From: Gammaproteobacteria bacterium
GTDB lineage: Bacteria > Pseudomonadota > Gammaproteobacteria > Steroidobacterales > Woeseiaceae
Assembly: GCA_029863705.1 (NCBI GenBank)
Contig: JAOTUU010000015.1
Coordinates: 1 to 32,176, forward strand
Direction: 5' to 3'
DNA: 32,176 nucleotides
Positions 23,430 through 32,176 of the stretch are shown here, one piece after another (within the stretch, counting starts at the first letter, position 1; each line of letters opens with the position of its first letter). The notes below the pieces were generated by a model, which saw only the letters and a list, made by a program, of their open reading frames with translations, searched no databases and was not told where the DNA came from. Made by a program: the position numbers and the translations under genes.

Positions 23430-23792
23430 ATGACTAAGAAAGCACTCATTTGTATTTCTTTTCTCGCAGCGACATTCCTTTCGGCCACTACGATGGCGGA
23501 AGATGGGGTGGCAGCTGATCCGGAGCATTACACAGTCGAATTTGAAAACGACAAAATTCGAATCATACGGATCAAATATGGTCCGGGCGAAAAGTCCGTT
23601 ATGCATACGCATGGCCCGAACGCGGCAGTTTTTCTGACCTCAAATGCCGTTCGCTTTACCCTGCCTGACGGCACATCCGTGGACACGATCTCAGAGGCGG
23701 GTGCCACTCAATGGTCCGATTCGGAAGAGCATTTACCAGAAAACCTGAGCGACGAAATACTGGAAGTTGTTCTCGTTGAACTAAAAGAATAG
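23430..23792 (+). CDS. Exported cupin-fold protein
   Basis: A 120-residue protein with a Sec signal peptide (MTKKALICISFLAATFLSATTMA, cleavage near MAE). The mature part is a single small cupin: PGEKSVMHTHGPNAAVFLTSN matches the first cupin motif with two His but without the usual Glu, and the second motif is degenerate, so metal binding is uncertain. GGGGGA lies 9 bases before ATG 23430, and TATACT at 23368-23373 is a plausible -10. It stands alone between the diguanylate cyclase and a convergent TPR gene. A periplasmic sensor, isomerase or binding role cannot be separated by sequence. Confidence 0.78.
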   Translation: MTKKALICISFLAATFLSATTMAEDGVAADPEHYTVEFENDKIRIIRIKYGPGEKSVMHTHGPNAAVFLTSNAVRFTLPDGTSVDTISEAGATQWSDSEEHLPENLSDEILEVVLVELKE

Positions 23793-23842
23793 TAACTGCG
23801 AATACAGCGGTTTAAGTCATGGCCGGCACTTCACCGTTTCTG

Positions 23843-23930
23843 GAGCGTCGTCTTATGGCCGTTGGCTGCCTATCGTTTCATTGGATATTCAATAAACTCA
23901 GCGTCCGCTTTTGATAAAAGCGGACATACG
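23843..23930 (-). repeat. Mosaic palindromic repeat, copy 1 (3' half, reverse orientation)
   Basis: Contains a perfect hairpin, GTCCGCTTTT and AAAAGCGGAC (23903-23925) around a 3-base loop. The reverse complement matches the third hairpin of the copy at 27968-28124 (CCGTATGTCCGCTTT start). The flanking 23843-23880 resembles the fourth hairpin (GGCAGCC.ACGGCCATAAG). It lies between the ends of two convergent genes. There is no T-run, so it is not a standard terminator, though it could protect the 3' ends of transcripts. Confidence 0.75.
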
Positions 23931-23979
23931 GCTACGTGACTGAAAACCCTCTCAATCCACGGACTATCAAACGTGCGGT

Positions 23980-25593
23980 TCAATTATTTGGTCCTGACAG
24001 GCTAGCGGCCACGCTCTCGAGCTGCTCTAGTAACCTGGTGTAGCGCGGATCCGAGCGAAGATTCGCGAGGTCCTCGTCGTTGCGCATCCATGCGGCGCTG
24101 ACCGTGCCATGCTGCACCGCGGCATCGAGATATTCCATCGCGCTCTCAAGTTCGCCGAGCGTGGCAAGATTGCACGCCACGTTGTAAAGCACGACCGGGT
24201 CGTCTGGATCTATTTCGATCGCACGGTGCAACCAGCGCTTCGCGCGTTCGGTATCGCCAAGGACCACCAGCGTGCCCGCGCCCAGGTGATAGGCCCGTGC
24301 ATCGTCAGGGTTCCACTTGAGGTTATTCTCGACAACCTGGATCGCCTCCGCGGACTCTGCAACGGCCTCCTCATCGCGGCCGAGGCCACGCAGCACCTGT
24401 ATGCGCAGGCACCTCGACTGGTAATCGGTCGGGTCCATTTCACCGGCAGTCTTGAATAACTCGATGGCCTCCTCGAGCCGACCCTGGTGGAAACGCGTAC
24501 GCGCGAAATAATAATGGGCTTCGAACAAACGTGAATTCAGCTCCAGTGCTTTTTCGAATTCTGCCTCTGCTGCATCGAAGTCGTTGCTAATGAGATACGC
24601 TAGTCCGCGCGATGCATGCGCCTCGGCCAGACTCGAATCGAGCTCCAGTGCCCTTTTGCTGGCACTCCGCGCCTGCTTCGCGTAACCCGGCAGTGGATCC
24701 GCGTACATGACAAGAAAGGAAAAGCAGTCTGCATAGCCGGCCCAGGCCGGTGCGAACTCCGCGTCAATATCGATCGCCTGGCGGAACATCTGCTGCGCAT
24801 ACTCGATATCCGTTTTTCGAAATCGTTTGAAAAACTGGCGACCGCGAAGGTAGTACTCGTAGGCGCCGACATCCTTGCTCACCTTTGTCCGGAGTGCAGA
24901 ATGCTGCTTCGGTGTCAGTGACTCGAGCAAGGCCTCTGCGATGCTCTTCGCGATTTCGTCCTGGATCTTGAACACGTCCTGCAATTCTTGATCGAAACTC
25001 TTGGACCAAATGTGATAGCCATCAGCTGTCTTGACCAGCTGCGCCGTAATACGCAACTGGTTTCCTGACTTGCGAACACTGCCTTCGAGCAAGGTCTTAA
25101 CGCCCAAATCGCGCCCTATTTGGCGGACGTCTGCGGCACCGGTGCTGTACAAGAACGATGATGACCTGGCTGCCACGGCGAGCTGCTGGACCTTGCTCAA
25201 CGCATTGAGAATCTCCTCTGCGATTCCTTCGCAGAAAAATCCCTGATCCTGTTCGGGGCTCATGTCGACAAAAGGTAATACGGCGATCGAGGGCTTGTCG
25301 CCAGCTTCGGCAGCCTCGTCTGAATACCTCAAGGTTCGACGGATTCCATGGGGCGTAATATCGAAGATCCAGGTGAGTATGACGGTGACCGGGAAGCCGA
25401 TAATCACGAGCACAATGAGTGTGATCATGACCCAATTCGGGAACCCTAGCGGCTGGAATGTAATTTCGCCAATCTGCAGCAAGACGAAAGCGGCGACTGC
25501 ATAGGCTGCGGTTACAGGATAAACCCCGCGTCGCTTCAGCTCGGCCGATAATATCGCCGGGGAAAAAAATCGTTTTTTGTTCGGGCCAGCCAC
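23980..25593 (-). CDS. Membrane protein with FlgO-like domain and TPR repeats
   Basis: A 537-residue inner-membrane protein. Two hydrophobic segments (about 25-43 and 54-77) are followed by a cytoplasmic or periplasmic region. Residues about 102-215 match the FlgO-like / CadC-associated domain: SIAVLPFVDMSPEQDQGFFCEGIAEEI, LGVKTLLEGSVRKSGNQLRIT and DGYHIWSKSFD. Several tetratricopeptide repeats (about 240-520) follow, with A.A.Y.RG..Y and LDP-type signatures. The family is often joined to a winged-helix or adenylate-cyclase N-terminus; here only two membrane helices are present. The start is GTG at 25593, the only one available, because an in-frame TGA lies two codons upstream; the ribosome site is weak. 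The TPRs suggest a scaffold or protein-interaction role. Topology is not certain. Confidence 0.82.
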   Translation of the reverse strand: MAGPNKKRFFSPAILSAELKRRGVYPVTAAYAVAAFVLLQIGEITFQPLGFPNWVMITLIVLVIIGFPVTVILTWIFDITPHGIRRTLRYSDEAAEAGDKPSIAVLPFVDMSPEQDQGFFCEGIAEEILNALSKVQQLAVAARSSSFLYSTGAADVRQIGRDLGVKTLLEGSVRKSGNQLRITAQLVKTADGYHIWSKSFDQELQDVFKIQDEIAKSIAEALLESLTPKQHSALRTKVSKDVGAYEYYLRGRQFFKRFRKTDIEYAQQMFRQAIDIDAEFAPAWAGYADCFSFLVMYADPLPGYAKQARSASKRALELDSSLAEAHASRGLAYLISNDFDAAEAEFEKALELNSRLFEAHYYFARTRFHQGRLEEAIELFKTAGEMDPTDYQSRCLRIQVLRGLGRDEEAVAESAEAIQVVENNLKWNPDDARAYHLGAGTLVVLGDTERAKRWLHRAIEIDPDDPVVLYNVACNLATLGELESAMEYLDAAVQHGTVSAAWMRNDEDLANLRSDPRYTRLLEQLESVAASLSGPNN

Positions 25594-25701
25594 CGTTCAA
25601 GTCTACGATAAGTCGCAGTCCATAAGTACACAGTGCTGCACAATAAGTCGCGTCCGAGCAAAAACAAAGAAGCCTTTTCTGAGTTTTTTTGGGAAGCAAG
25701 A

Positions 25702-25730
25702 GAGCTTAACTTCGATCCAAGGTTTATACT
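25702..25730 (+). promoter_or_regulatory. Possible promoter of the EF-Tu domain-2-like gene
   Basis: TATACT at 25725-25730 is a strong -10; the -35 near 25702-25707 (GAGCTT) is poor. It lies about 40 bases before the ATG at 25772, in the divergent spacer with the TPR gene. Confidence 0.3.
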
Positions 25731-25771
25731 GAGAGTACAGCGAAGGCTGGAGCATGAGTTGGGAGAGTGAC

Positions 25772-26026
25772 ATGACTGAGACAAAAATCGGCACAGTAAC
25801 CCACTACTACAATCACTTACATGTGGCGGGTGTGACGATTGCCGAAGGCGAACTACATACAGGCGACACCATTCACGTCAAGGGCCACACGTCAGACTTC
25901 GAGCAAGAAGTCGAATCGATGCAGATCGACCATGAAGCGGTGGAAGTCGCCAAACCGGGCGACCAGATCGGGCTTACGGTGATTGAGTACGCAAGGGAAC
26001 ACGACACTGTCTATATGGTGACCTAA
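25772..26026 (+). CDS. Stand-alone EF-Tu domain-2-like (OB/beta-barrel) small protein
   Basis: An 84-residue cytoplasmic protein with no GTPase domain. IGTVTHYYNHLHVAGVTIAEGELHTGDTIHVKGHTSDFEQEVESMQIDHEAV..AKPGDQIGL has the beta-barrel pattern of translation-factor domain 2 (the 'elongation factor-like' small proteins): a V/G..Y....VA.V.I..G.L..GD.I...G start, then S.Q.....V..A..G...GL. ATG at 25772 has GGGAG at good spacing; an ATG at 25754 is further from it. A function is not known; binding to RNA, ribosome or another protein is a fair guess. It is divergent from the TPR gene and followed by a reverse-oriented repeat copy. Confidence 0.8.
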   Translation: MTETKIGTVTHYYNHLHVAGVTIAEGELHTGDTIHVKGHTSDFEQEVESMQIDHEAVEVAKPGDQIGLTVIEYAREHDTVYMVT

Positions 26027-26054
26027 GTCTGACCCAACGCCTACCTATTCTAGG

Positions 26055-26128
26055 GTCCGCTTTACCCCCGAAAGCGGACATCCAGCCAAACTTGTCCCGA
26101 GGGGCTGCTAATGACCCAAAGCGGACAT
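26055..26128 (-). repeat. Mosaic palindromic repeat, copy 2 (5' half, reverse orientation)
   Basis: A perfect 9-base stem, GTCCGCTTT / AAAGCGGAC (26055-26079), has loop ACCCCCG. It is followed by GACCCAAAGCGGACAT (26113-26128). The reverse complement aligns with the first two units of the copies at 30335 and 30980 (TGTCCGCTTTGGGTCA, then TGTCCGCTTTCGGGGGTAAAGC). It lies just after the stop of the EF-Tu domain-2-like gene. Confidence 0.8.
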
Positions 26129-26148
26129 CCAATTAGAGACGAGTTTCA

Positions 26149-26643
26149 ATGAGAATAAGAAACGGTGGTGTATTACTCGCGTGTGCAGCCCCACTAGTAT
26201 TTGCGGGATGTACGATCGATAAGCAAGAAGCGAAAGACCTCGTTAATGATCCATTTATTGATCAACAATCGGAGATTCGTGAAGCCGTATTGTCGATCAA
26301 AAGGGACATAGAATCGTCCAACATTGTGGGACTTCAGGCCATACACCTCGAAAGCGAAAAGTTCACGAAATTTGGGCCACGCAGCTTTGAACGTCAGGAT
26401 GTCGCAAGCACTAACGAGTCAGAGGCAGGGTTCTTTAGCTCAATCAGCAACGCCAAGTACGAAGCAAGAGACTTGAAGATTGACGTATTTGGTGACGTAG
26501 GAATCGCCACCTACTACCCGGAGGTCAGCTTTGTAAGGGACGGAAACGACGTTGAAGTGAGCGGCCGACAAACTCTCGTGTTCCTTAAGACCGATTCCGG
26601 CTGGAAGCTTGTGCACGAGCACGGAACCGTTAGAAGACCATAG
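26149..26643 (+). CDS. NTF2/SnoaL-like lipoprotein
   Basis: A 164-residue predicted lipoprotein with signal MRIRNGGVLLACAAPLVFAGC and lipobox VFAGC. Residues about 40-160 have the form of the SnoaL/DUF4440 NTF2-like fold: a long N-terminal helix (IREAVLSIKRDIESSNIVGLQAIHLESEKF), then strands ending in VEVSGRQTLVFLKTDSGWKLVHEHGT, a typical SnoaL_3 closing motif. The ATG at 26149 has only a weak purine-rich site. No catalytic residues are recognisable; a binding or small-molecule enzyme role is equally possible. An IS30 element lies 65 bases downstream. Confidence 0.75.
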   Translation: MRIRNGGVLLACAAPLVFAGCTIDKQEAKDLVNDPFIDQQSEIREAVLSIKRDIESSNIVGLQAIHLESEKFTKFGPRSFERQDVASTNESEAGFFSSISNAKYEARDLKIDVFGDVGIATYYPEVSFVRDGNDVEVSGRQTLVFLKTDSGWKLVHEHGTVRRP

Positions 26644-26649
26644 CTAACC

Positions 26650-26705
26650 AACGGCCGGTTCTGGCCGAAAGCAGCCACTCGCCAGGTTGTATACTGAGTG
26701 GCTGG
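26650..26705. repeat. Mosaic repeat fragment and 34-base hairpin left of the IS30 element
   Basis: GGTTCTGGCCGAAAGCAGCCACTCG resembles the fourth unit of the repeat family (CTTACGGCCAAAAGCAGCCATCG in the copy at 27968). The part 26672-26705 is a hairpin with a 9-base stem, CAGCCACTC and GAGTGGCTG. A near-identical sequence is found inverted at 29410-29444. Orientation of the fragment is ambiguous because it is palindromic. Confidence 0.6.
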
Positions 26706-26708
26706 TCA

Positions 26709-26739
26709 TGACTGCGATTTCAACCGGTCGATGCAACAC
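26709..26739 (+). repeat. Left terminal inverted repeat of the IS30 element
   Basis: Starts TGACTGCGATTTCAACCGG and pairs with 27909-27939 except for one C/T difference at the sixth position. Confidence 0.85.
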
Positions 26740-26773
26740 CTAAGCTCTAACTATAGAGCGGGAGGTGTTGATA

Positions 26774-27928
26774 ATGAAGCAGAGAAGGTATTTCACTCAG
26801 ACCGAGATCGCAGAGGTCTATGACCGCTGGGAGAACGGCGAGTCCCTTAACTCGATAGCCCGAAGTCTGGAGCGCGGTCACTCAGCGGTGCAAGGCATGT
26901 TGTCGAGAACCGGTGGCATCCGACCCGCACCAAAACTACGCTCACATCTTGCGCTGACACTGACCGAACGCGAAGAGATCTCTCGAGGTGTTGCCGCCGG
27001 CCACTCGATGCGAACGATCGCCTCACAACTCGGGCGAGCGCCGTCGACAGTCAGCCGCGAGGTTAACCGCAACGGTGGCCGGCGATGGTATCGCGCCAAC
27101 AAGGCTGACGAAGCAGCCTGGCAGCGAGCACAGCGTGTGAAGACCTGTAAACTGGCCAAGAACCCTGCGCTGGCACGCATCGTGGCTGAGAAGTTGATGG
27201 GTCGCTGGTCGCCACGTCAGATCGCAGGTTGGTTGAAGCGCCGCTACCCGGACGATGAGAGCTTCCAGGTGTCACACGAGACGATCTACTTAACCCTGTA
27301 CATCCAGGCCCGCGGGGCCTTGAAGAAAGAGCTGATCAAGTACTTGCGACGCAGCCGCGCCATGCGTCGTTCACGCCATCACACACAGAAGACGAGCAAC
27401 CATGGGCGCATTGTCGGTGCCGTGTCGATCAGCGAGCGACCACCGGAAGCCGAGGATCGTGCGGTCCCGGGTCACTGGGAAGGTGACCTCATCTGCGGCA
27501 GCAACAACAGCCAGATCGCGACCCTGGTAGAACGTCACACGCGCTACGTGATGTTGGTGAGAGTGCCGAGCAAGGACACCAAGACCGTCATCAATGCGTT
27601 GATCAAACAAGCGCACAAGTTACCGCGGGAACTCTACAAGTCTTTGACCTGGGATCGCGGCAAAGAGATGGCCGATCACAAGCGCTTCAGCCTGGCGACC
27701 GACATCGACGTGTACTTCTGCGATCCACAGCAACCGTGGCAGCGTGGCTCAAACGAGAATACGAATGGACTCTTGCGACAGTACTTCCCAAAGGGAATGG
27801 ACTTGTCGAACGTGCATCAGAATCGACTAAATGCTGTTGCAAGACAACTCAACGAACGGCCGCGAGAAACGTTACAATTTTACTCACCGGCGGAGAAGTT
27901 TAATGAATGTGTTGCATCGACCGGTTGA
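26774..27928 (+). CDS. IS30-family transposase
   Basis: A 384-residue DDE transposase. N-terminal helix-turn-helix segments (LTLTEREEISRGVAAGHSMRTIASQLGRAPSTVSREVNRNGG) recognise the element ends. The catalytic triad of the RNase H-like core is visible: D in GHWEGDLICG, D in TWDRGKEM, and E in SNENTNGLLRQYFPKG, which is the IS30 signature. ATG at 26774 has GGAGG 8 bases upstream. An earlier in-frame GTG at 26765 overlaps that site and was not chosen. There is no frameshift or stop, and the coding end runs into the right inverted repeat. Confidence 0.95.
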   Translation: MKQRRYFTQTEIAEVYDRWENGESLNSIARSLERGHSAVQGMLSRTGGIRPAPKLRSHLALTLTEREEISRGVAAGHSMRTIASQLGRAPSTVSREVNRNGGRRWYRANKADEAAWQRAQRVKTCKLAKNPALARIVAEKLMGRWSPRQIAGWLKRRYPDDESFQVSHETIYLTLYIQARGALKKELIKYLRRSRAMRRSRHHTQKTSNHGRIVGAVSISERPPEAEDRAVPGHWEGDLICGSNNSQIATLVERHTRYVMLVRVPSKDTKTVINALIKQAHKLPRELYKSLTWDRGKEMADHKRFSLATDIDVYFCDPQQPWQRGSNENTNGLLRQYFPKGMDLSNVHQNRLNAVARQLNERPRETLQFYSPAEKFNECVASTG

Positions 27929-27939
27929 AATCACAGTCA
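27909..27939 (-). repeat. Right terminal inverted repeat of the IS30 element
   Basis: Reads GTGTTGCATCGACCGGTTG at its inner end, complementary to the left repeat at 26709-26739. It overlaps the last codons of the transposase gene. Confidence 0.85.
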
Positions 27940-27967
27940 CTAGCGGCCGCTCGGAAGCATATCACCC

Positions 27968-28124
27968 CGATGTCTGCTATCGGGGGTAAAGCGGACGTTT
28001 GGTAGCCCGCGGATTGAGAGAATTTTCAGTGAGCTAACCGTATGTCCGCTTTCATCAATAGCAGACGTTCAGATTGCTAGAAATCGAGCAAATCGAAGGG
28101 CTGCTTACGGCCAAAAGCAGCCAT
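27968..28124 (+). repeat. Mosaic palindromic repeat, copy 3
   Basis: Units 2 to 4 of the family. Unit 2 is TGTCTGCTATCGGGGGTAAA followed by GCGGAC; unit 3 begins TGTCCGCTTTCATCAATAGC and closes with AGACGTT; then come the linker GAAATCGAGCAAATCGAAG and hairpin unit 4, GCTTACGGCCAAAAGC. From AGCAGACGTTCAGAT through GCTTACGGCCA it is almost identical to the copy at 30980-31170. Its first unit seems interrupted by the IS30 element. The next gene's stop codon is 10 bases to the right. Confidence 0.85.
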
Positions 28125-28134
28125 CGTGCAGCCC

Positions 28135-29379
28135 TTATTGCTTTTTTCGTTGAGCTATTCGCGCAGCCACTTCTGCCAAGTATGCCTCTTTTTCCATTCT
28201 CAGCCTTTCGTATCTCTGACCCAGCTCGGACAGAGCCCAAGCCTCAGGATCATGCGGTGGATCCATCAAATGATGGTTCTTGGATTTGTCCCACTCGTAG
28301 ATCATCACGTATTGAGGGTTATTGACCAGTGGCTTAATCGTATATACGCGACCACCAGACTCGCCAAACGGGTCTGAAGGCTCGTCAGTTATTGAGCCAC
28401 CGACACTGTCGAATGAACGAACATCGGCAGGCAGCGGCCTGGCACGTCGGTAATTGTGAGCTGTTGAATACTCTCTGGCGTCTGCCGGAATTGCAGCGAT
28501 GCGATCCAGGACGTGGCCAGAAGGCTTACACGGCACCTGTAGCCTCATGTGTTTGCCGTGCGTAAATAGATAGCCGTTACCGGCACCGGTTTGTTCAGGG
28601 CCCGTAGTTTGCTGCACGGCCTCAAACGCAGCGACGTTTTCCCGCGCCCTGTCGGCGGCCTGGTTCGGCAGGTCAGGTGCCTGTTCGCGACTGTTGGCGA
28701 ATGCCGGCGAAGAGTCTTGCTGATCGCACGGATAGGTGATACCGGTTCGCTCAACATAGCTTTTGTAATTCATCTCGAATGACAAAATGGATTGCAGCTC
28801 TCCGCTTTGTGCGTGGATGACGTATTCGTCTGCATGATCGGCGGCTTGGTCGAGTACAAGCTCGTCAGTATTGGGATCCAGCAGGTGCGGTCGAAGCTCG
28901 AGTTTCACAGTATTTACTTGTGAAATAGTCTTCAGGATCTGATCCTTTGCCTGCCGATTCAGGCCCGTCTCATTTTCGATCGCCTCTGCTAATTGACCAT
29001 TTTGATCATATCTATCAATGCGGTTATAGATGCGCGTTCCGATCCAGGTGTTGCCGTAGTTGCCGCCCATGCCGAGGCTTTGCAGCACGATCGGAGGAAC
29101 ATCCGCAAATGGCGTGAAGGTGATCTCTGCGGTCGAGTTTCTGAGGGCGTTGGTATCGATCCTCGCAATCCGGATACGGCCGTTTGAATGCCATTTTGCC
29201 TCCTCGTAGCGAAGCTCGTCCGCCCCATTTCGCTCCAGGGCAGCCCGTGCCTCGGCGTCCGGGACGTCAATAACAACTTCAGAATAGGGCACTGTCTGCG
29301 CCTGGGTAATGCCCGTGCAGAGAAGCAGGGCCGTCGAAACAAAGCTGAAAACAGTCGCCAGAATGATCAAGATTCGCAT
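28135..29379 (-). CDS. Secreted protein of unknown function (414 residues)
   Basis: An N-terminal signal peptide (MRILIILATVFSFVSTALLLCTGITQAQ, cleavage near AQA|QTV) directs export. The mature protein shows no membrane segment. It has two Cys (YPCDQQ and VPCKPS) that could form one disulfide, a Gly-rich patch (LGMGGNYGNTWIGTRIYNRIDRYDQNGQ) and a charged, helical C-terminus ending in RIAQRKKQ. No catalytic motif or known family was recognised, and the length is consistent with a periplasmic or extracellular protein. ATG at 29379 has AAAGGAG about 13 bases upstream, longer than ideal. It stands alone, bounded by repeat copies on both sides. Confidence 0.7.
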   Translation of the reverse strand: MRILIILATVFSFVSTALLLCTGITQAQTVPYSEVVIDVPDAEARAALERNGADELRYEEAKWHSNGRIRIARIDTNALRNSTAEITFTPFADVPPIVLQSLGMGGNYGNTWIGTRIYNRIDRYDQNGQLAEAIENETGLNRQAKDQILKTISQVNTVKLELRPHLLDPNTDELVLDQAADHADEYVIHAQSGELQSILSFEMNYKSYVERTGITYPCDQQDSSPAFANSREQAPDLPNQAADRARENVAAFEAVQQTTGPEQTGAGNGYLFTHGKHMRLQVPCKPSGHVLDRIAAIPADAREYSTAHNYRRARPLPADVRSFDSVGGSITDEPSDPFGESGGRVYTIKPLVNNPQYVMIYEWDKSKNHHLMDPPHDPEAWALSELGQRYERLRMEKEAYLAEVAARIAQRKKQ

Positions 29380-29409
29380 GCCAATCCGAGCGGCTCCTTT
29401 GGGTCGATA

Positions 29410-29444
29410 CCAGCCTCTGAGTATACAACCTGGCGAGCGGCTGG
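29410..29444 (-). repeat. Second copy of the 34-base hairpin, inverted
   Basis: The reverse complement reads CCAGCCGCTCGCCAGGTTG then TATACTCAGAGGCTGG, differing at only a few positions from 26672-26705 beside the IS30 element. It lies upstream of the start of the secreted protein gene and abuts the repeat copy at 29441. Confidence 0.7.
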
Positions 29445-29581
29445 TTTTGGGAGTATAGCGGTCACTCAGCGGCCGATATTCACAAAGCCTCTATCTGAGC
29501 GTCCGCTTCAACCGATAGCGGTCATTCAAAACTCAGGATATCGAGCAAATCGACCGGCAGCTTACAGCCATAAGCGGCCAT
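29441..29581 (+). repeat. Mosaic palindromic repeat, copy 4 (diverged)
   Basis: Contains GCGTCCGCTTCAACCGATAG, the linker ATATCGAGCAAATCGACC and unit 4 GGCAGCTTACAGCCATAAGC. It is more diverged than the other forward copies, especially in the first half. It lies between the start of the secreted protein gene and the terminator of the epimerase-like gene. Confidence 0.75.
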
Positions 29582-29583
29582 AG

Positions 29584-29603
29584 AAAAACCCCGCCGAAGC
29601 GGG
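29584..29603 (-). terminator. Rho-independent terminator after the NAD(P)-binding protein gene
   Basis: On the minus strand CCCGC-TTCG-GCGGG forms a stem with a UUCG-type tetraloop, followed by GTTTTT. It lies 45 bases beyond the stop codon at 29648 and directly beside repeat copy 4. Confidence 0.75.
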
Positions 29604-29647
29604 AATCTCAATGTCGGTGACAGGCTCAATAGCCTGGATGTACGAGC

Positions 29648-30271
29648 CTAATACGAAACGCCCGGCGTCATGCGAATGTAGCTATCGTCTGCCAGCTGGG
29701 TCAATACGAAATCGGCGACATCAGCACGGGAGATTTTGAGTTTGAGTCCCTTTTCAGTCGCCGGAAACCCGTGGCAGTAATCACCGGTAAGTTCGCCGTC
29801 GGTGTACGCCGCTGGACGGACGATCGTCCAGTCCAGCCCACTTCTTATTACATGGTCTTCCTGAGAGACATGATCGGCGAATGCCGCGCGTAGCAGCATG
29901 CCAAACATGACGTACTTCCATAGGAAATTCAGATTGTCGCGGCTGTCGCCTACACCAAGGGTTGAGAGGCAAACAAGCCGCCGCGTGCCGCTTTTTTGCA
30001 TTGCCTGAATGATATTGCGAGTACCCGTCGAGCGAACTTGACCTTTACTGCCTGCGCCCAATGCAATCAGGACAGCATCATGATCTGGCACTGCCCGATC
30101 GACGGCTGCCGAATCCATAACGTCGCCCTCGATAATTTCGAGGCTCGCGTGACTAATCGCCAATTCCGATGGATCGCGGGCAAATGCGGTAACTGTATGA
30201 CCCATTTCGAGTGCTTGCGTTACTAGCAGGCGACCGACCGTACCGGTGGCGCCAAAAATTAGAACTTTCAT
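29648..30271 (-). CDS. NAD(P)-binding NmrA/atypical-SDR family protein
   Basis: A 207-residue cytoplasmic Rossmann-fold protein. MKVLIFGATGTVGRLLVTQALEMGHTVTAFARDPSEL carries the dinucleotide-binding GATGTVG. Later segments GDVMDSAAVDRAV, RLVCLSTLGVGDS and SGLDWTIVRPAAYTDGELTG are typical of the SDR_a5/biliverdin-reductase-B-like group; the active-site Tyr-xxx-Lys of classical SDRs is not present as such. ATG at 30271 has AGAGAAG upstream; the open frame extends to 30304 without a better start. The substrate is unknown; flavin or quinone reduction, or redox sensing, are the usual options. It is a single gene with its own terminator, bounded by repeat copies. Confidence 0.85.
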   Translation of the reverse strand: MKVLIFGATGTVGRLLVTQALEMGHTVTAFARDPSELAISHASLEIIEGDVMDSAAVDRAVPDHDAVLIALGAGSKGQVRSTGTRNIIQAMQKSGTRRLVCLSTLGVGDSRDNLNFLWKYVMFGMLLRAAFADHVSQEDHVIRSGLDWTIVRPAAYTDGELTGDYCHGFPATEKGLKLKISRADVADFVLTQLADDSYIRMTPGVSY

Positions 30272-30334
30272 GCTTCTCTCTATATCTTCCTCGAAAACAA
30301 ACATCCGCAGGTGGTCATCTAGACTCTATCCGAA

Positions 30335-30525
30335 TGTCCGCTTTGGGTCACAAGTGGCCCTTCAGGAGTAGTTTAGCTGAATGTCCGGTTCCGGGGGTAA
30401 AGCAGCCACTCGGAACCCGCATTTTGGAAAGCTACGATTTGAACGTCTGCTTTCACCCAAAGCGGACGCTCATAACACTCGAAATCGAGCAGATCGAAGA
30501 GCGGCTTGCGGCCAACAGCGGACAT
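30335..30525 (+). repeat. Mosaic palindromic repeat, copy 5 (full length, 191 bases)
   Basis: Units in order: TGTCCGCTTTGGGTCACAAG with GGGTCAC/GTGGCCC hairpin; TGTCCGGTTCCGGGGGTAAA; GAACGTCTGCTTTCACCCAA with stem CGTCTGCTTT/AAAGCGGACG; linker GAAATCGAGCAGATCGAAG; and CGGCTTGCGGCCAACAGCGG. It has the same length and order as the copy at 30980-31170. It ends 12 bases before the stop codon of the DUF1428 gene. Confidence 0.9.
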
Positions 30526-30537
30526 CGCACACCTGAT

Positions 30538-30903
30538 TTAAAGCTCAATTATTGGATCGAAACCACCATAAATAAGACGTTTACCGTCGAGCGGCATTGG
30601 ATTTTTCTTTGGGTCCATCCGTTCGTCCTCGAACTCCTCAGACATCATTTTCTGCATCGCAGCATCGCGGGTATCTTTGTCAGGCCATTCGATCCATGAG
30701 AATACAACTGATTCCTCCGCCGTCGCCTTCACCGCTTTACGAAAATCGGTGGCCTTTCCTTCGGGCACGTCGTCACCCCAGCATTCGATCACTCTCGTAG
30801 CGCCAAGCTCGGTGAAAATGGTGTCCGCCTTCTTCGCGTACTCGATAAACTTCTGCTTGTTTGCAGTCGGAACAGCTATTACAAAACCGTCGATGTAGCT
30901 CAT
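30538..30903 (-). CDS. DUF1428 family protein (YbaA-like)
   Basis: A 121-residue cytoplasmic protein with the DUF1428 pattern throughout: MSYIDGFVIAVPTANKQKFIEYAKKAD, GATRVIECWGDDVPEGKATDF, and ERMDPKKNPMPLDGKRLIYGGFDPI near the end. The fold is a ferredoxin-like dimeric alpha-beta barrel; the function is not established. ATG at 30903 has AGGAG 8 bases upstream. The gene lies alone between two full-length direct copies of the mosaic repeat (30335-30525 and 30980-31170), an arrangement that would allow deletion or duplication by recombination. Confidence 0.9.
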   Translation of the reverse strand: MSYIDGFVIAVPTANKQKFIEYAKKADTIFTELGATRVIECWGDDVPEGKATDFRKAVKATAEESVVFSWIEWPDKDTRDAAMQKMMSEEFEDERMDPKKNPMPLDGKRLIYGGFDPIIEL

Positions 30904-30979
30904 TGCTCTACTCCTGAAAACACAGTGACGACTACCAGATAGGCGATTTGCCGGGTCGCGCAACTCATGGTGGAGTCAG

Positions 30980-31170
30980 TGTCCGCTTTGGGTCACAAGT
31001 AACCCTTTAGGACTAGTTTAGCCCAATGTCTGCTTCCCGGGGTAAAGCAGTCATTCGGAAGTGGCGTTTTCGGTAGTCCCTAGCTGAACGTCTGCTCTCA
31101 CCCAAAGCAGACGTTCAGATCGCTAGAAATCGAGCAAATCGAAGGGCAGCTTACGGCCAGAAGCAGACAT
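30980..31170 (+). repeat. Mosaic palindromic repeat, copy 6 (full length, 191 bases)
   Basis: Aligns with 30335-30525 from TGTCCGCTTTGGGTCACAAG to AGACAT without net insertion or deletion. It has hairpins TGCTTCCCGGGGTAAAGCA and AACGTCTGCTCTCACCCAA/AGCAGACGTT, linker GAAATCGAGCAAATCGAAG, and GCAGCTTACGGCCAGAAGC. Unlike the other placeable copies it lies between two gene starts, those of DUF1428 (leftward) and the membrane-anchored protein (rightward), in a 389-base spacer. No gene is seen in the rest of that spacer. Confidence 0.9.
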
Positions 31171-31292
31171 TCGTAAGATTGCGCCTGGGTCACGTTGCTT
31201 CGTTTACGGTTAAGATGCCCTTAACGTGACTGCTGTAATAGTTGCGGCACATCGTTCCTGATTGTTACCGGTAGTCGGTCAATGGAAAATCC

Positions 31293-31976
31293 ATGAAGAT
31301 TCCAAAACTCCCCTGGGCCAGACTTCTCGCCGAGGGCGCCCTGATAATTGTCTCCGTATATCTGGCGATCGTTCTTGAAGGTATGTCGCGGGATCGCGAA
31401 TCAGCTCGGGCGGCTCACATTGCGCTGGCCCAGATGCTCGACGAGATGCGCGAAGATCGATCCGACGTCGCCGAAATCCGGGCAATTCAGATCGAGCGAG
31501 ACGGGCAGTACAAAGCTCTGATCCATTCGTTGACAAGTCCCGATACCATGCCGCTCGACCCGGTGGCAGACGCAATGGACTCGATCTTCTTTTCAAACCG
31601 GACGCTTTATCCTCGACGCGCAGCGTGGACTACTATGGTCGCCGCAGGACAGTTGGCCGAGCTCGACGATCCCGCTCTCGTCACGCGGCTCGGTAATTTC
31701 TATGAAAGCGTTACGGTTCGGGTTATCGATAGCGGCCAGGACTACGACGAGAATATTAACGAGATCGGGCGTAACTCGGCAACGGAGATCTGGGACGGGC
31801 TTAATGGTCGATTGCTGATTAATGATGTCCACCAACTTACAAAGTTTCAGAATCAGCTTCGGTATTTGCACATCGGGTGGAACATCTGGTACCTGGATCG
31901 AATGGACGATTACAACCAGAGGCTGGACTCACTGATCATTGATATCGAGTCGTATCTGAAACAACACGCTGGCTGA
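31293..31976 (+). CDS. Membrane-anchored protein, DUF6090-like
   Basis: A 227-residue protein with one N-terminal hydrophobic segment (about 12-32, LLAEGALIIVSVYLAIVLEG) and a largely helical, charged remainder. The order 'K.P...LL.EG.LI..SV.LA....G' followed by R and a coiled, acidic stretch is like the DUF6090-type anchored proteins best known in Bacteroidetes, but I am not certain of the family. The uncleaved anchor would place the rest in the periplasm or cytoplasm. ATG at 31293 has only a weak TGGAAA upstream. No catalytic motif is seen. It is a single gene with a diverged repeat 20 bases after its stop. Confidence 0.7.
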   Translation: MKIPKLPWARLLAEGALIIVSVYLAIVLEGMSRDRESARAAHIALAQMLDEMREDRSDVAEIRAIQIERDGQYKALIHSLTSPDTMPLDPVADAMDSIFFSNRTLYPRRAAWTTMVAAGQLAELDDPALVTRLGNFYESVTVRVIDSGQDYDENINEIGRNSATEIWDGLNGRLLINDVHQLTKFQNQLRYLHIGWNIWYLDRMDDYNQRLDSLIIDIESYLKQHAG

Positions 31977-31995
31977 TGGAATGCATCGCATTTAT

Positions 31996-32029
31996 AAACG
32001 ACGGCCGCTTCGGGTCAGTAGCAGTCGTT
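31996..32029 (+). repeat. Mosaic palindromic repeat, diverged fragment
   Basis: AACGACGGCCGCTTCGGGTC followed by AGTAGCAGTCGTT resembles unit 1 of the family, with an imperfect stem (AACGAC/GTCGTT ends). It lies just after the 31293-31976 gene and reaches the stop codon of the partial gene at the right edge. Confidence 0.5.
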
Positions 32030-32176
32030 ACCACGAACCGAGTACGCCCAGCTCCTGGAACAGGTAAATTAATTGTGCCGAAAATGCAACAACAGCCGCT
32101 CCCAGTTGGATCGAGCGACGCTCCGTGATAAATGCAGCGATTGCCACAGCGATAATTACACTATAATTAATCCATA
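32028..32176 (-). CDS. C-terminal part of a probable membrane protein (partial)
   Basis: An open frame of 49 codons runs from the right edge to TAA at 32028-32030. It reads a hydrophobic segment SVIIAVAIAAFI, a basic turn TERRS, and a second hydrophobic segment AAVVAFSAQLIYLFQEL, ending GVLGSW. This looks like the last two helices of an inner-membrane protein with a short cytoplasmic loop. The rest lies outside the window. No family is recognised. Confidence 0.5.
   Translation of the reverse strand, partial: WINYSVIIAVAIAAFITERRSIQLGAAVVAFSAQLIYLFQELGVLGSW

Follow-up and report, generated by a model that had tools for sequence, protein, structure and literature searches.

A palindromic repeat that separates single genes in co-oriented arrays, and its possible role in an integron-like cassette system

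The DNA studied here, called the window below, is a stretch of 32,176 nucleotides from a bacterium of the Woeseiaceae (Gammaproteobacteria; GenBank assembly GCA_029863705.1, contig JAOTUU010000015.1, positions 1 to 32,176). Its first 23.8 kb hold glycogen/starch genes (for an alpha-amylase, GlgB, a phosphorylase and a GlgX-like enzyme) and a TonB receptor gene, and are free of the palindromic repeat that is the subject of this work. An earlier note, made from the letters alone, had claimed at least seven copies of this repeat in the remaining 8.2 kb and none before. Both statements were borne out: we found eight copies or fragments between 23847 and 32029, and the best match to our profile A4 in the first 23.8 kb had an E-value of only 0.26. 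A4 was built exclusively from 14 copies of another genome (G010), and it recovered the same places in the window. The full form in the window has the four hairpin units that had been announced; it is 191 nt long and consists of four palindromes, which we call L, M, N and R. The repeats and the genes between them are as follows.

23430-23792, + strand: first array gene, 120 aa, no Pfam match; no repeat before the gene in the window
23847-23966, - strand: partial repeat, N-R half, diverged (48 bits)
23980-25593, - strand: TPR gene (Pfam) between repeats, on the same strand as the repeats (exception)
25754-26026, + strand: small gene, EF-Tu domain 2-like (Pfam), antisense to the next repeat
26052-26128, - strand: repeat, L-M half (56 bits)
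26149-26643, + strand: putative cassette gene, SnoaL-like (Pfam)
26648-26712, - strand: L-R repeat, its L site cut by IS30
26713-27935, + strand: IS30-family insertion sequence (IS) in the L site (NF033563; transposase gene 26765-27928)
27936-28125, + strand: L-M-N-R repeat, its left end cut by IS30 (154 bits)
28135-29379, - strand: putative cassette gene, 414 aa, no Pfam match
29388-29582, + strand: full L-M-N-R repeat (177 bits)
29648-30304, - strand: putative cassette gene, NAD(P)-binding (Pfam)
30332-30526, + strand: full L-M-N-R repeat (190 bits)
30538-30963, - strand: putative cassette gene, DUF1428 (Pfam)
30977-31170, + strand: full L-M-N-R repeat, best copy (199 bits)
31293-31976, + strand: DUF6090 gene (Pfam), on the same strand as the repeats (exception)
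32001-32029, + strand: L site at the contig end

The array appears to run on from the right end of the window into contig C358, the start of which matches that end with 156 of 157 bases identical and which contains four more repeats on the + strand.

The basic unit of the repeat is a pair of 24-nt sites, L and R, each of the form GNCNGCTT-N8-AAGCNGNC. In an alignment of 337 copies, each site showed a pair of inverted 8-nt boxes (GNCNGCTT) flanking an asymmetric 8-nt spacer, most commonly TGGGTCAG in L and TCGGCCAG in R, and the two sites had the same polarity. The 191-nt form of the window has two extra palindromes, M and N, between L and R; relatives often carry a short form, about 85 nt long, that consists of just L and R, and single palindromes occur too. 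In one 191-nt copy the outer arms show 77% complementarity, and the folds of the repeat are predicted to be stable. The linker that had been described as fixed is indeed exact in two window copies; it is altered in two others, and different or absent in contig C216 and in the short form. The proposal that structure rather than sequence is conserved was not supported, because the boxes are conserved as sequence across the 337 copies and most variable stem positions change independently. The paired stem changes on record are weak on the whole: one column pair (28-58) covaries clearly, being paired in 211 of the 337 copies, 4.9 standard deviations above shuffles, and a few others covary weakly. 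A stricter pattern, retaining only 16 units, gave no clear covariation signal. The palindromes are predicted to be pairs of protein-binding boxes.

The repeat does not belong to a described family as judged by Rfam, which had no match to it at gathering scores, the sole match in the window being a tRNA. A permissive Rfam search over 23780-32176 yielded just two chance-level microRNA matches, none near threshold. We found no account of this repeat system in the open-licence literature, judged by titles and the starts of abstracts.

The earlier note had rightly recognized a single mosaic palindromic family, and had missed that the repeats separate genes and keep a fixed orientation to them. Among 144 pairs of neighbouring repeats from 67 stretches of eleven genomes (150-2500 bp apart and scoring at least 25 bits, nhmmer matches below this being left out), 139 had both members on the same strand. 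Between such same-strand neighbours, the longest open reading frame (ORF) was antisense to the repeat in 118 of 139 cases (binomial 1.4e-17). The order was strictest in G010, where sixteen copies in 8 kb were all on the + strand and the longest ORF was on the - strand in 36 of 36 intervals. The same was seen with a set of 181 ORFs from fourteen genomes that had same-strand repeats on both sides (at least 17 bits, within 400 nt on each side; one interval may contribute two ORFs): 165 of them were antisense to the repeat, and the median distance from the stop codon to the next repeat was 25 nt. In the window, six of the eight non-IS genes kept to this orientation. The arrays thus consist of tandem single-gene units in one orientation with a repeat behind each gene, as in integrons.

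The short distance to the stop codon and the stability of the predicted folds are also what one would expect of transcription terminators or mRNA-end stabilisers carried along with accessory genes. We consider this quite improbable, since the unit is conserved as sequence and contains an asymmetric spacer, and since a related site lies behind a recombinase family in other taxa, as described below.

Further copies had been predicted for the host genome, and blastn indeed gave 12 matches in its 3.68 Mb, window copies counted. A covariance model gave 62 rows in the same genome at E <= 1, some of which were the two strands of one copy. Model R1 matched 24 of 40 genomes searched, the host included (E <= 0.001), and model R2 matched 13 of 15 chosen genomes. 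Counting both strands and scoring 150 candidates in each genome, R2 gave at least 79 matches in G010, 77 in G015 and 73 in G032, a genome of another family. In broader samples, in which few candidates were scored for each genome, R2 matched at least 9 of 369 genomes of the class (E <= 1e-6) and R1 at least 3 of 398 genomes of the phylum, the host being among them in both cases. Among the matches listed, the copies were clustered at gene-size spacing, and G010, G015 and G205 each had several arrays. The exact DNA pattern of the repeat was found in none of the viral contigs; among the studied loci it matched only G010 stretches. An 818-base array stretch had no blastn match in plasmids.

The genes between the repeats are mostly unknown: 18 of 30 array ORFs had no Pfam match at a cut-off of 0.001, and 3 of the 12 others matched domains of unknown function or little more. 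They are also diverse, with just 19 homologous pairs among the 181 array ORFs (blastp E <= 1e-6, 60% coverage), 3 of these being IS30 transposases. Several window genes have relatives next to repeats elsewhere. The gene at 23430-23792 has a homologue in G013 (L138 498-54, 92% by blastn) that adjoins repeats; the SnoaL-like gene (26149-26643) has a paralogue on contig C47 of the same genome, also adjoining repeats (blastn); and the DUF1428 gene recurs in G013 (77% aa identity) between repeats of the same relative orientation and within unrelated flanks. Against the idea of exchangeable units, a homologue of the 29648-30304 gene (81% nt identity, G012 L104) is not directly adjoined by a repeat in the flanks shown.

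Arrays adjoin the same core genes in G010, G015 and G018 (in G010, on the pantothenate kinase/biotin ligase side), and likewise the same antiporter genes in G010 and G032, which are of two different families. No cassette ORF was common to these same-place arrays (blastp, E <= 1e-6, 60% coverage). The DAHP synthase and pseudouridine synthase genes of G014 have aligned ends about 0.15 kb from each other, compared with 1.8 kb in G015, where four repeats lie between the two genes. This looks like one empty and one occupied site, and a deletion in G014 would also fit. In addition, G015 and G032, from two families, share 2457 bp at 99% identity (L089 5158-7612, L100 1-2455), a segment that comprises repeats, a gene and a copy of IS30; we read this as a probable recent transfer, the alternative being a sorting error in one assembly. 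From these sequence comparisons, the array genes would appear to behave as exchangeable units.

Another explanation is that the repeats are selfish elements, similar to REPINs or miniature inverted-repeat transposable elements (MITEs), that insert behind genes in variable parts of the chromosome, shuffling being due solely to homologous recombination between copies. This would account for the palindromic units, the mosaic forms, the occurrence of single palindromes and the closeness to stop codons. It accounts less well for the co-orientation of neighbours in 139 of 144 pairs and for the joint absence of genes and repeats at the one empty site (G014), which a deletion would also produce. Moreover, the carrier that had been suggested, a transposase of the RAYT type (RAYTs are associated with repetitive extragenic palindromic (REP) elements), was rejected: of 13 genomes with arrays, 6 gave no Y1_Tnp match, and none of 15 Y1_Tnp loci had a repeat above 10.2 bits, so that no link was seen between Y1_Tnp genes and the repeats. 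The remark that the repeat is unlike simple REP elements was correct. Taken together, we regard a selfish element as unlikely. At one locus on contig C162 of the host genome (L013 1400-2250), a Y1_Tnp gene is flanked by a different repeat (AAAGCGGTTCGACCCC...), possibly a separate repeat family.

For all their likeness to integrons, the arrays are not accompanied by the known integron parts. None of 337 copies had the attC core boxes RYYYAAC and GTTRRRY at either end in attC order, and 2 of 337 carried a core box in the opposite place. IntI scored above cut-off in only 1 of 12 genomes (G032), and not in the host. The G032 gene (L108, C1:67617) is complete and has no repeat within the surrounding 16 kb, repeats lying about 60 kb off on the same contig; an IntI gene in G015 (L109, C3) is interrupted and has no repeat within 10 kb. 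IntI was therefore rejected as the enzyme of the arrays, and by these two defining parts, IntI and attC core boxes, the system is not an integron. The same data bear on the possibility of a degenerate integron array that has lost its integrase (CALIN, cluster of attC sites lacking integron-integrases), which resembles our arrays in anatomy and mostly unknown cargo, as far as the consulted part of PMC8618304 describes it; with no attC-order boxes in 337 copies and IntI in a single genome, away from the repeats, this is the least probable of the explanations considered.

We also considered the IS30 element as the mobiliser, the hairpins being its targets or remnants. The window IS30 has more than one copy in its own genome. 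Its left flank, when joined to the C216 copy's right flank, restores a complete L site that has a 2-bp duplication (AC), which suggests from the flanking letters that the window contig is probably chimeric at IS30, its left half belonging with C216. A wrong joining of the two halves would explain the switch of the repeat strand at this point. In several genomes, copies of IS30 are found within or at repeats and, with the clean duplication in the L site, these speak for such a role. On the other hand, the window IS30 had no match in the G010 stretches among the 90 longest of 156 alignments, though the G010 arrays are the longest, and IS30 rather resembles a parasite of palindromic targets. We regard IS30 as a very unlikely mobiliser.

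A better candidate was a tyrosine recombinase of about 208 aa, whose gene lies amid repeats in G015 and G032 and adjoins one in G082. It spans little beyond the catalytic domain, and the residues R, K, H, R, H and Y, which we take to be the catalytic residues of tyrosine recombinases, were invariant in 12 of 12 sequences. Its predicted model (mean predicted local distance difference test score 71.6, a modest value) matched the fold of XerA and Cre. A scan of named genomes gave 541 stretches coding for relatives, from which we kept 79 loci, mostly from Beta- and Gammaproteobacteria.

We searched for repeat-like sequences at 77 of these loci, excluding one with a gene cut by the contig end (L269) and G015's own locus (L229), with profiles built without the tested loci. 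Within 200 nt behind the stop codon there were 19 matches of at least 8 bits (weak scores) versus 1.14 expected, and 10 of at least 10 bits versus 0.94 expected. Before the start codon there were 6, 5, 3 and 2 matches at cut-offs of 8, 10, 12 and 15 bits. An R-half motif, which was written after seeing the sequences, was present at 22 of 78 loci (L269 again omitted), compared with 0.5 expected and a shuffled mean of 0.1. In G082, a single-contig genome, the hairpin behind a recombinase gene has the variant core GGCGCAAAAGC, as do the array sites of this genome. In array genomes, repeats of at least 12 bits lay near 5 of 8 loci of this recombinase. In two overlapping control sets of other tyrosine recombinases, the figures were 0 of 12 loci and 1 of 30 loci, the single one being FimB-like; the 30 do not comprise the ~208-aa loci of array genomes. 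Site-like repeats were also seen at the recombinase loci of Massilia and Aidingimonas. These data make the ~208-aa family the most likely candidate for the enzyme of the arrays.

Pfam detected no recombinase among ten ORFs taken from the ends of three arrays or close by. G002 and G018 have only two PF00589 matches apiece, presumably XerC and XerD to judge from their scores and sizes; these are possible users of the repeat sites. A FimB-like recombinase was set aside as driver and read as cargo, despite repeats near 3 of its 4 loci. FimB-like genes at L125 7444-8169 and L100 3735-4382 adjoin or sit within arrays.

With confidence a little above even, we propose that the repeats serve for recombination in a cassette system that resembles integrons but has its own sites and its own enzyme. 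A tyrosine recombinase, most likely of the ~208-aa family, would recombine sites of the same polarity, with crossover in the asymmetric 8-nt spacer. A gene would leave together with one repeat as a unit, and such a cassette would enter at another copy of the repeat, which may also be one standing alone behind a core gene.

Several observations weigh against this proposal. On the side of the arrays, the stretches analysed were picked because most hold repeats, the ORFs were called mechanically on fragmented assemblies, and 16 of the 181 ORFs break the orientation rule, as do the window genes at 23980-25593 and 31293-31976. On the side of the enzyme, the excess of matches behind the stop codon shrinks at stricter cut-offs (5 versus 0.64 at 12 bits or more, 2 versus 0.52 at 15 or more), and 3 of the 8 loci in array genomes have no repeat of at least 12 bits. 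Only 5 of 45 genomes (G007, G011, G015, G032 and G082) have the ~208-aa recombinase in intact form, G016 and G205 have remnants of it, and it was not found in the host genome or in the array-bearing G010, G002, G013 and G018. A site-like hairpin is often found behind its gene, the position of which relative to the array varies, and it may itself be cargo. As the FimB-like recombinase (4 of 40 genomes) also has repeats near its genes (L150, L151 and L153), nearness alone cannot tell cargo from driver. Cassette recombination itself, the crossover in the spacer and the identity of the enzyme are what we infer from the observations given above. The missing recombinase gene is not fatal to the proposal, because integrase-less integron arrays are common (PMC8618304, in the part consulted).

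A broader claim, on which we are evenly divided, is that this is a second, independent cassette-capture system of Proteobacteria, in which a short tyrosine recombinase acts with 24-nt core sites in tandem (GNCNGCTT-N8-AAGCNGNC) to build arrays of single-gene cassettes at several chromosomal places; the arrays would be passed between families and outlast their enzyme as CALINs do. Integrons are the textbook example of cassette-based gene capture. If the claim is true, the storage of genes as cassettes has more than one evolutionary origin, a home is found for many unknown genes from uncultured bacteria, and a new set of recombination sites becomes available. The recombinase also has matches in cultured Massilia, Methylomonas, Paraburkholderia and Aidingimonas, which makes the system testable.

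Compared with known systems, the arrays are closest to integrons and CALINs, with which they share single genes in one orientation, a structured site behind each, great length, mostly unknown cargo and the frequent lack of a recombinase gene. The candidate enzyme is in the same superfamily as the integron enzyme, and the system as proposed works like integrons. They differ in that the sites have no GTTRRRY/RYYYAAC core boxes and are conserved as sequence, that no IntI accompanies the arrays, a shorter, different tyrosine recombinase being linked to them instead, and that several arrays are found per genome (G010, G015 and G205). In pdif modules, which are Xer-mediated, genes are likewise flanked by tyrosine-recombinase core sites; they differ from the present repeats in box sequence and in the tandem double-site layout. 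REPINs, as presented in the consulted part of PMC3116915, are also paired palindromes of about 85 bp forming families within a genome, while the present repeats have no link to a Y1 transposase, have L and R spacers of the same polarity, and lie between accessory genes in clusters. Finally, the CGTC-tagged repeats, compared through their description in part of PMC3733652, are also palindromic and without known transposase; they differ from the present repeats in being short and in that no single-gene array order is described there.

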